In this document: positions 3,210-6,303 of the stretch, one piece after another | Layout of the letters: every line of letters starts with the position of its first letter | How positions within the stretch are numbered: the stretch's first letter is position 1 | Source: Burkholderiales bacterium | Lineage (GTDB): Bacteria > Pseudomonadota > Gammaproteobacteria > Burkholderiales > JAEUOS01 | Reading direction: 5' to 3' | NCBI GenBank assembly: GCA_016790635.1 | Contig: JAEUOR010000037.1 | Location: 1 to 64,000, forward strand | DNA length: 64,000 bases | The notes under the pieces: generated by a model | The model's database searches: none | What the model saw: the letters and a program-made list of their open reading frames with translations, nothing else | Told to the model about the DNA's origin: nothing | Position numbers and translations under genes: made by a program

Positions 3210-3824
3210 TCAGGCCGGTTCCAGATAACTCTGGAACACGCCCACGTGCACGTGCGCCGCATCGGCGCCCTCGGGCCACAGCTCGGTTGAAACGAAGCGC
3301 ACGTCGTAGGTCGGCTCGTCCGCGGCCGTCACACCATGGGCATGCGCGTCGGGAAACGGATAGAGCGGCGATTCGTTCACCACCACGCCCACCTTGCCGC
3401 GAATGTAGCCGGGCATGCGAACATGTCCCGGTATGTGCAGGTCACGCACCCGCACCCGGTCGCCCTGGGCAAAGGTGCGCCGACCCGGCTCGTTGGAGCG
3501 GCCGGGCGCGCTCGGCAGTGACAACGGGAAGCCGCCCGCCGCCCGCTCCTCGAGTTCGGCGCGGGTCAGGACACCCTTTTCCACGCACAGGGTCGCCAGG
3601 CTGGTGAGGGTGCGCTCGTAGTAGCTCGCGTTCATGTAGTGCCGCGGCTCCATGCGCTCAATCGCGTGGCGATACTCGTCCATGTTGAAGATGCCGCGCC
3701 GCACCGCCAGCGCATACAGCGCGTTGATGCGCACCTCCCAGCCGGCGTGGAACGCCTGCGCGTCACGCTGAAAGTTGACGCGACCGAACCCCTGCCGGCC
3801 GCCCATGTCATGCACACCGTCCAT
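3210..3824 (-). CDS. nthB: Nitrile hydratase beta subunit
   Basis: The 204-residue protein opens with MDGVHDMGG, the standard beta-subunit start, and has the conserved HAGWE segment (26-30), the HYMNASYYERT segment (62-72) and the C-terminal GHVRMPGYIRGKVG (133-146), whose arginines R136 and R142 lie in the region that contacts the alpha-subunit metal centre. It closes with the usual ELWPE and a short final strand. Together with the alpha subunit it hydrates nitriles to amides in the cytoplasm. It is a little shorter than many family members (about 215-230). A strong ribosome site (GGAGGG) precedes the ATG. It is the last gene of the flavin-reductase-like/nthA/nthB run, 21 bases after nthA. 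Confidence 0.95.
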   Translation of the reverse strand: MDGVHDMGGRQGFGRVNFQRDAQAFHAGWEVRINALYALAVRRGIFNMDEYRHAIERMEPRHYMNASYYERTLTSLATLCVEKGVLTRAELEERAAGGFPLSLPSAPGRSNEPGRRTFAQGDRVRVRDLHIPGHVRMPGYIRGKVGVVVNESPLYPFPDAHAHGVTAADEPTYDVRFVSTELWPEGADAAHVHVGVFQSYLEPA

Positions 3825-3845: not shown

Positions 3846-4439
3846 TTACAGGCGTGCGACGCCGATCATGCCGTCGCGCGTCACCAGTCCGGCAAGTTTT
3901 TCCTCCGGCCAGCCGATGCTGTGTTCAGGTTGCTCCGGCAGCACCATGTAGCGCGTGTCGGCGGTGGTATCCCAGACTCGTATCTCGACTTCAGGAGGCA
4001 GGTCGAGACCCATTTCGCGCAGCACCGTGCGCGACTGGCGCACCACCCGCGCCCGGTACTCGAGGTCCTTGTACCAGTCCGGCGGCAGTCCGATGATGGT
4101 GTAGGCCGTGCACGAACACAGGGTGCAGCAGATCACGTTGTGCACCCGGGGGGTGTTCTCCAGCACCACCAGGTGGCGGTGATGGGGCGGCATGGTGAGC
4201 CCCAGTTCCATGACCGCCGCGCGCCCGTTGGCCAGGAGGCGCGCGCGAAAGGCCGGGTCGCTCCAGGCATGCGCGATCACGCGCGCGCCATTGCGCGGCA
4301 GCCACTCCTCGGTGGCCTTGTGCGCCAGGTCGGCGACCTCTGCGGCAGCGAAACCACGCTCGCCGAGCGCCGCCTCGATCGCGGCCACCCGCTTCTCGAC
4401 CGGCGCGATGCCGGCAGGTGCTGATGCTGAAACGCTCAT
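3846..4439 (-). CDS. nthA: Nitrile hydratase alpha subunit, mixed metal-site signature
   Basis: This is the 197-residue catalytic subunit of nitrile hydratase. The metal-binding claw is C105-T106-L107-C108-S109-C110, preceded by an additional Cys104. In the family, Thr at the second position marks cobalt enzymes and Ser marks iron enzymes, so the claw itself reads as cobalt type. However, the following residues TAYTIIGLPPDWYK, the DTTADTRYMVLP block (157-168) and the alpha-then-beta gene order resemble the iron-type Rhodococcus enzymes. The ATG follows GGGAGGA with good spacing; the longer in-frame extension is not needed. No P47K, P14K or other activator gene and no amidase lies nearby. Enzyme identity is secure; metal choice is uncertain. 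Confidence 0.95.
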   Translation of the reverse strand: MSVSASAPAGIAPVEKRVAAIEAALGERGFAAAEVADLAHKATEEWLPRNGARVIAHAWSDPAFRARLLANGRAAVMELGLTMPPHHRHLVVLENTPRVHNVICCTLCSCTAYTIIGLPPDWYKDLEYRARVVRQSRTVLREMGLDLPPEVEIRVWDTTADTRYMVLPEQPEHSIGWPEEKLAGLVTRDGMIGVARL

Positions 4440-4461
4440 GTCGTCGTCCTCCCTCGTGGCT

Positions 4462-5133
4462 TCAGTTCGGTCCGTCCTTGCGCTTGCGCGTCTCGATCTC
4501 GCGCAGGCGCGCGTAGAAGGCCCGCCCCAGGCGCGCAATCGGCCGCGTCGCGTGGTCCTCCAGCAGGTCGACACGATGGCGCTTGCCTTCGCGCGTGCCG
4601 CGGTGCACGCGCTCGGCGATGTGCACATGCACCACCTCGCCCATGATCCAGTGATTGGCGCCCAGGTCGATGATGTCGCGCAACCGGCACTCGTAGGCGA
4701 CCGGCGTGCCGGCCACGCGCGGCGGGCGGATCGCAGTCGAGGGCGCCTCTTTCAGGCCAAAGCGCGTGAATTCCGACACGTCGTGCGGCAGGTCCTGCGC
4801 GGTATCGACCATCGCATCGAACAGAGCCTCGGGCGACAGGTTGACGGCGAACTCGCCGTTGGCGCGGATGTTGATGAGGGTGTCCTTGGCGACGCGCTTC
4901 TCGTCGTTGTGATTGTCGCCACGCGGCCCGCACGAAAAGCCCAGCACCGGCGGCGACGGACAACAGACGTTGAAGAACGAAAACGGCGCGACGTTGGACA
5001 CCCCGGCCTCGCTGATGGTCGAGACCCAGGCGATCGGCCGCGGGATGATCGAGTCGCGCAGCAGGAAGTACATCTCCGAGGGCTCGAGGTCGGTGGCAGG
5101 AAGCGAAATGGTCGGGGGAAGTGCGGTGGGCAT
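4462..5133 (-). CDS. Flavin reductase-like FMN-binding protein (DIM6/NTAB family)
   Basis: The 223-residue protein has the split-barrel flavin reductase fold signatures. RPIAWVSTISEAGVSNVAPFS near the N-terminus is the flavin-binding segment, followed by KDTLINIRANGEFAVNL and the C-terminal ANHWIMGEVVHVHI strand. Members reduce or bind FMN in the cytoplasm, often supplying a monooxygenase. The start at 5133 (MPTALPPTIS) is chosen over an upstream ATG at 5178 because homologues begin close to this point; neither has a strong ribosome site. It is 22 bases upstream of nthA on the same strand, so it is probably cotranscribed with the nitrile hydratase. A role in making or processing the nitrile substrate is only inference. 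Confidence 0.85.
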   Translation of the reverse strand: MPTALPPTISLPATDLEPSEMYFLLRDSIIPRPIAWVSTISEAGVSNVAPFSFFNVCCPSPPVLGFSCGPRGDNHNDEKRVAKDTLINIRANGEFAVNLSPEALFDAMVDTAQDLPHDVSEFTRFGLKEAPSTAIRPPRVAGTPVAYECRLRDIIDLGANHWIMGEVVHVHIAERVHRGTREGKRHRVDLLEDHATRPIARLGRAFYARLREIETRKRKDGPN

Positions 5134-5289
5134 TGCTAGGGTGATAGGTGATCTGGCGGGAAGGCGAAGATACATCATGGCCGATATCGGGAGGCAGGCG
5201 GCCCCCTACCGGAAAGCAATGAACTTAGACGCCACCCGCCTCGTCGCGAACCTTGCGCATCGTCCGCCGGTACGATCACCCGTGCGGAC

Positions 5290-6249
5290 TCAATTCGCCT
5301 CGATCTTCAATTCACGAACCAGCCGTCCGTAACGCTCGAAATCCTCGCGCATCTCGCCCGCCAGCACTTCGGGGCCGCCGCCAACGACATCGAAGCCGAT
5401 GTCGGCCATGCGCTGGCGAATCTCCGCTGTTTGCAATAACGCATTGATCTCGCCGTTCAGGCGTGCGATCACCGGCACTGGCGTGCCGGCAGGTGCCAGC
5501 AATCCCACCCAGCCGCGACTGATGACTTCCGGAAAACCCAGTTCCGCCATGGCCGGCACATCGCCGGCATTCGCCGAACGCCGCCGGTCGGCCAGCGCCA
5601 GCGCGCGCAGGCGCCCGGCGCGGACGAACTGCGCCGCGCCGCCCCACGGCACCCACAGCACCTGCACCTGCCCGCCGATGACGTCGTTGATCGACGGTGT
5701 GACGCCCTTGTAGGCGACGTGCTGGAGATCAATGCCAGCACTTGCCTTGAAGAGTTCGCCCACGATGTGCATGGGGGAGCCGTTGCCGCCGGTCGCGTAG
5801 GCAAGCCCCGGACGCCGCTTCGCCAGCTCGATCAGCTCGCGCACCGAATTCACGCCCAGCCCCGGATGCACGGCCAGGGTCATGGCGTTGGTGACCACCT
5901 GCACCACCGGCGCCAGATCCTTGAGCACGTCGATGCTCACCGCCGCGCGCGACAGCACGTGCGGCGCAATGACCAGCGTGTTGGGCACCATCGCCAGCGT
6001 GTGGCCGTCAGCGGCGGCGCGCGCCACCAGCGTGCTGCCGGCCATGCCGCCCACCCCGGGGCGGTTGTCGACGATGAAGGGCTGCCCCAGGCGCACCGAG
6101 AGGCGCTCGCCCAGCGCACGCGCGACCAGGTCCGGTCCGGCGCCGGGCGGAAAGGGGACGACGACGGTGACCGTGCGCGTCGGCCAGGTTTGCGCGGCCA
6201 GCGGCAAGGCCAGGCCGAGGCAGGTCAGCATTGCAATCAGACGAATCAT
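5290..6249 (-). CDS. Bug-family (TctC-like) periplasmic solute receptor
   Basis: The 319-residue protein starts with a Sec signal peptide (MIRLIAMLTCLGLALPLAAQ) and then TWPTRTVTVVVPFPPGAGPD, the hallmark beginning of Bug receptors, followed by FIVDNRPGVGGMAG and YATGGNGSPMHI. These two-lobed proteins bind carboxylates or related small molecules in the periplasm. Start 6249 was preferred over an ATG at 6288 because it places the signal peptide at the N-terminus. No TctA/TctB membrane genes accompany it, as is common for Bug receptors in Burkholderiales. It is divergent from the FAD monooxygenase at 6348 and may deliver or sense that enzyme's substrate. Confidence 0.93.
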   Translation of the reverse strand: MIRLIAMLTCLGLALPLAAQTWPTRTVTVVVPFPPGAGPDLVARALGERLSVRLGQPFIVDNRPGVGGMAGSTLVARAAADGHTLAMVPNTLVIAPHVLSRAAVSIDVLKDLAPVVQVVTNAMTLAVHPGLGVNSVRELIELAKRRPGLAYATGGNGSPMHIVGELFKASAGIDLQHVAYKGVTPSINDVIGGQVQVLWVPWGGAAQFVRAGRLRALALADRRRSANAGDVPAMAELGFPEVISRGWVGLLAPAGTPVPVIARLNGEINALLQTAEIRQRMADIGFDVVGGGPEVLAGEMREDFERYGRLVRELKIEAN

Positions 6250-6303
6250 GTCGGGGTGGCTCTTGCGGAGTTGCGGAAGAGTGTCCATGATAATCGCCTA
6301 GGT

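Follow-up and report, generated by a model that had tools for sequence, protein, structure and literature searches.

A clade of iron-branch nitrile hydratases with a CTLCSCT claw, apparently free of dedicated activators

The catalytic chemistry of nitrile hydratases and the oxidation of their cysteines are established for the family. The claw motifs CSLCSCT of iron enzymes and CTLCSCY of cobalt enzymes are treated as strictly conserved (PMC2770081), and the Ser/Thr site is routinely used to predict whether an enzyme takes iron or cobalt, and hence which metal and activator to supply on expression. By sequence, the closest structurally described relative of both subunits studied here is the Comamonas testosteroni Ni1 enzyme, deposited in the PDB as iron-type (4fm4; E-values of 3e-73 for alpha and 2e-79 for beta). 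An activator gene has been reported for Ni1 (PMC7329996), and the enzyme was functional in E. coli without it (Kuhn et al. 2012, as reported in PMC7329996).

The window (the whole stretch of 64,000 nucleotides that was analysed) encodes on its (-) strand a nitrile hydratase alpha subunit of 197 aa (3846..4439) and, 21 bases downstream, a beta subunit of 204 aa (3210..3824) in which Arg57, Tyr68, Tyr69 and Arg142 are present. The alpha subunit reads C104-C105-T106-L107-C108-S109-C110-T111-A112-Y113-T114-IIGLPP, carries the pair His86-His87 and has its DTTADTRYMVLP block starting at D157; the codons of the CTLCSC claw (residues 105-110) lie at 4110..4127 (-), a position computed from the residue numbers. 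The claw C105-T-L-C108-S-C110 with its extra Cys104, the TAY-x-IIGLPP segment and the DTTADTRYMVLP block are all present as the first-pass annotation had described them. Profile searches matched alpha to Pfam NHase_alpha (E 3.7e-69) and to TIGR01323 (234.7 bits, slightly below the 249.9 cut-off), and beta to TIGR03888 (206.8 bits, above cut-off). Against the model for the thiocyanate hydrolase gamma subunit, alpha reached 161.6 bits, below the cut-off of 291.5, and CSCYPR is absent from it. Given a C-X-L-C-S-C claw in alpha and a paired beta subunit with both arginines, the pair is predicted to turn nitriles into amides as a two-subunit nitrile hydratase. Alpha (3900-4439; residues 52-84 and 124-173) also matched NHLP-leader RiPP precursor models (TIGR03793, 64.7 bits, above cut-off); NHLP leader peptides are known kin of nitrile hydratase alpha.

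The Ni1 alpha chain reads VICCSLCSCTAF, so that the extra Cys is common to Ni1 and the window. Its segment VICCSLCSCTAFTIIG differs from the window only by Ser/Thr in the claw and Phe/Tyr at 113, and the absence of Trp is therefore shared as well. A fold search with the predicted alpha model placed 4fm4 first (Z 24.6), ahead of the Rhodococcus iron enzyme (23.4) and of cobalt enzymes (22-23); the margins are narrow, and the AlphaFold model has low confidence at the claw (pLDDT 56-66); it gives a predicted fold, from which the metal cannot be told. The same search identified the His-His pair as the residues mutated in the Ni1 structures 4zgj and 4zge. It also returned 3vyh and 3vyg, in which the residue at site 113 was swapped with Arg between nitrile hydratase and thiocyanate hydrolase. 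The Trp/Phe/Tyr site 113 is probably a substrate-pocket position, and the clade to which the window belongs may thus prefer other nitriles.

A genome scan gave 80 loci with alpha subunits 60-82% identical, and residues were counted in an alignment of 84 clade members. The mixed motif proved typical of a whole clade, which comprises 80 or more alpha/beta pairs from Beta- and Alphaproteobacteria, with sources in Burkholderiales, Reyranella, Acetobacteraceae and others that include cultured strains and the complete genome of Stella vacuolata. Nearly all loci read [CV]CTLCSCTA[FY]; CSLCSC (L043) and CTQCSC (L027) occur once each, the latter (L027:3529-4089) being either a natural variant or a sequencing error. 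Thr106 is found in 83/84 members, Thr111 in all 84 and Cys104 in 69/84, so the arrangement lies far beyond chance. A mixture of cobalt and iron signatures had been noted for this gene; the motif is indeed mixed, but it is common to the clade and not peculiar to the gene, and a unique mutation or assembly error was rejected on the ground of this conservation. The His86-His87 pair occurs in 84/84 members and in Ni1, and is absent from 10 classic iron sequences. Residue 113 is Phe in 78/84 members and Tyr in 4/84; the TA-aromatic segment, earlier taken as iron-type in its TAY form, is shared with Ni1, but as TAF in Ni1 and in most of the clade. The window thus has the His-His pair and TA[FY] segment of the Ni1-like clade in addition to its place within it. 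No mention of 'CTLCSCT' was found in CC-licensed papers, and no literature was found on nitrile hydratases from the clade genera.

Phylogenies with cobalt and iron references, which had been proposed as a check, placed the window among characterised iron enzymes. In the alpha tree, the window, its clade and Ni1 grouped at 100/98, sister to the classic iron enzymes of Rhodococcus and Pseudomonas in a joint iron branch (100/95). Removing the claw columns left this picture intact (Ni1 clade 100/98, iron branch 100/99), the beta tree agreed (100/98 and 100/100), and in a joined alpha and beta tree built without the claw columns the iron and cobalt branches split at 100/100. None of the alpha, beta and joined trees put the window with cobalt enzymes, and all three contradict the suggestion of a lineage intermediate between the two types by placing it inside the iron branch with Ni1. 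This placement with a characterised iron enzyme is clean as far as descent goes, except that Ni1 carries Ser and TAF where the window enzyme carries Thr and TAY.

The joined tree separates the two diagnostic residues. The Thr/Tyr site that follows the claw shows a single switch, which falls between the iron and cobalt branches, whereas the residue inside the claw (Thr/Ser) flips about four times. Placing Thr at the root costs 4 changes and placing Ser there costs 7, so Ser is best read as derived, in the classic iron group, in Ni1, in one clade member (L043) and in one cobalt-branch genus (L099, L100, L104, L105). It follows that Thr106 of the window was most likely retained from the ancestor and would not be a cobalt signal; a changed metal preference, as initially envisaged, is less likely than a retained ancestral Thr with iron. 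Among the sites separating classic iron from cobalt alphas, the clade matches cobalt at 7, iron at 5 and neither at 5, small counts that mostly represent retained ancestral states. A pseudomonad group with CTLCSCTAW (L200-L202) adjoins the classic iron group. Pseudomonad CTLCSCTAW alphas at L209, L210 and L211 (alpha at ~4140-5200) are sister to the classic iron enzymes and have no linked Nha3; their loci also encode an amidase and a haem-containing, aldoxime dehydratase-like dehydratase (checked with Pfam in L210). The cobalt-branch genus (alpha at ~1500-2040) shows the reverse mixture, CSLCSCYPW, beside a P14K-like activator.

The window enzyme has neither textbook motif: in CTLCSCT, the Thr after the claw fits the iron type and the missing Ser does not, and Thr instead of Tyr at 111 departs from the cobalt type. 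Across our sample the strict conservation of CSLCSCT and CTLCSCY does not hold, although its Thr/Tyr half does. The assignment of Thr to cobalt and Ser to iron, on which the first-pass annotation had relied, fails in iron and cobalt branches alike, and alpha-beta gene order, also invoked as an iron marker, is common among cobalt-type pairs too. Comparisons of activators, sites and trees leave in doubt whether Ser defines the iron type.

A P14K-like gene lies near 91/93 CTLCSCY loci, and a linked COG0523 (Nha3) gene was found in 7/7 distinct classic iron loci. In the clade, 0/76 loci with at least 1.4 kb downstream had a P14K-like gene and 0/76 a COG0523 gene, and neither was present in 51 loci with 4 kb on both sides; the flanks in the window likewise contain no linked Nha3/P47K COG0523 activator. 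Whole-genome searches detected no P14K and no Nha3-like COG0523 protein in G249 (one contig, 100% complete), G114 (98%), the window's own genome (~90%), Ramlibacter WS9 or Caenimonas koreensis. COG0523 proteins of the searched carrier genomes were at most ~42% identical over part of Nha3, and those of the window's own genome reached only 28-37% identity across most of their length. The genomes of Reyranella soli and Stella do have P14K-like genes, outside the clade locus. Elsewhere in the sample, four cobalt-type CTLCSCYPW pairs (L085, L087, L088, L096) have a COG0523 gene ~47-52% identical to Nha3 about 1.4-1.6 kb downstream, and one genome (L212:2048-6322) carries one iron-type and one cobalt-type alpha-beta pair next to each other, accompanied by a single Nha3-like gene.

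Upstream of the window's alpha on the same strand lie genes for a flavin-reductase-like protein (4462..5178, (-)), directly adjacent and possibly co-transcribed, and for a TctC-type substrate-binding protein (5290..6288, (-)); neither showed conserved linkage beside other clade members. No Pfam family recurred among 103 ORFs adjoining ~34 clade loci (the commonest, EamA, accounted for 4/103), and relatives of amidases and of aldoxime dehydratase-like haem dehydratases were not found in the flanks of clade loci. The neighbourhood of the clade gives no hint of the natural substrate.

We favour, with some confidence, the reading that the window encodes an iron-branch nitrile hydratase of the Ni1 clade that kept Thr106 from its ancestor and acquires its metal, which is most likely Fe(III), with no dedicated activator. 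This reading accommodates the descent, the complete claw with both beta arginines, the clade-wide Thr106 and His86-His87, and the lack of a linked activator gene. Thr106 would predate the split of the family into iron and cobalt types, and Ser would be a later acquisition, gained three or more times among iron-branch enzymes and once among those of the cobalt branch. Descent and Thr111 suggest that the metal is probably iron, and its loading probably proceeds without an activator, as for Ni1 in E. coli. As has been suggested for Ni1, the His-His pair and an open channel would perhaps assist uptake; the role for the two histidines is a hypothesis that Kuhn et al. reportedly put forward in 2012. 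Two claw cysteines would then be oxidised and the nitrile hydrated to the amide. The substrate pocket is probably reshaped by the Phe or Tyr that replaces Trp after the claw. No CTLCSCT enzyme whose metal has been measured is known to us, and the claw of Ni1 contains Ser. More tentatively, and at somewhat less than even confidence, the whole clade may preserve CTLCSCT as the claw of the iron-branch ancestor, with no dedicated chaperone and a metal that may follow availability; the classic iron enzymes would then have gained the pairing of Ser with Nha3 as a later refinement.

Cobalt is a possible metal of the window enzyme. An enzyme of iron descent could bind cobalt in vivo if Thr106, together with the loss of Nha3, were the hallmark of a functional cobalt enzyme or of one that never became committed to iron. 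We regard this as unlikely, though not negligible. Beyond the presence of Thr106 in 83/84 members, it draws on the pairing of iron-branch Ser with linked Nha3 in 7/7 distinct classic loci and of Thr with none, and on a Rhodococcus iron enzyme that, when made without Nha3 in E. coli supplied with cobalt, incorporated this metal (Nojiri 2000, cited by PMC2770081), so that an enzyme lacking an activator could acquire cobalt in vivo. Set against it, position 111, next to the claw, holds the Thr common to all iron enzymes, and clade loci have neither the cobalt activator seen at 91/93 CTLCSCY loci nor linked relatives of the cobalt transporters CbtA, CbtB and HupE in their flanks. Both sites have moreover been probed in a cobalt enzyme (PDB 1ugr, T109S; 1ugs, Y114T): T109S reportedly kept cobalt and activity, and Y114T lost most of both.

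Less probable still is a promiscuous or switchable enzyme that, lacking a selecting activator, takes iron or cobalt by availability and is active with either. Most characterised nitrile hydratases work with one metal, even if the absence of both activators (whole genomes included), the shared His pair of Ni1 and the report that nitrile hydratases of the sponge A. cavernicola are not strictly iron- or cobalt-dependent (PMC7193024) would suit such behaviour. An artefact of sequencing or assembly, or a decaying gene, can be dismissed: the window assembly is ~90% complete with 5.6% contamination, but the motif recurs in dozens of independent genomes, among them cultured isolates and the complete Stella vacuolata genome, and the claw and the beta Arg and Tyr residues are all intact.

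For an enzyme of iron descent that carries the 'cobalt' Thr, the textbook sign does not reveal the metal. Since Ser/Thr flips in both branches and the following Thr/Tyr does not, prediction should be based on the Thr/Tyr site together with tree position and activator genes. Through its cultured strains, the clade is also a source of enzymes that may need no activator to mature, and single-residue changes in it would allow the determinants of metal choice to be probed.

The window enzyme thus belongs to a large iron-branch clade, apparently activator-free, with a non-canonical claw. Its nearest counterpart, Ni1 (4fm4), shares with the window the alpha and beta clade, the pre-claw Cys, the TA-aromatic(F/Y)-T-IIG segment, the His-His pair, the Thr after the claw and the alpha-beta pair; it differs in having Ser in the claw, Phe at 113 and a reported activator gene, none being linked to the window pair. 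The classic iron enzymes (Rhodococcus N-771 and Pseudomonas, with Nha3/P47K) are sister to the clade in all trees and have the same Thr after the claw and the same alpha-beta order, but they carry CSLCSCT-[AN]W, no His-His pair and a linked COG0523 activator. Cobalt-type enzymes (P. putida 3qxe, Pseudonocardia 1ire, Bacillus 2dpp; P14K/NhlE) resemble the window in the claw Thr and the fold (Z 22-23), whereas Tyr-Pro after the claw, a linked P14K-like activator and a separate branch set them apart. The thiocyanate hydrolase gamma subunit (2dd4) belongs to the same family and has the same CTLCSC claw, but with CSCYPR, split beta-like subunits and a distant position in the tree.
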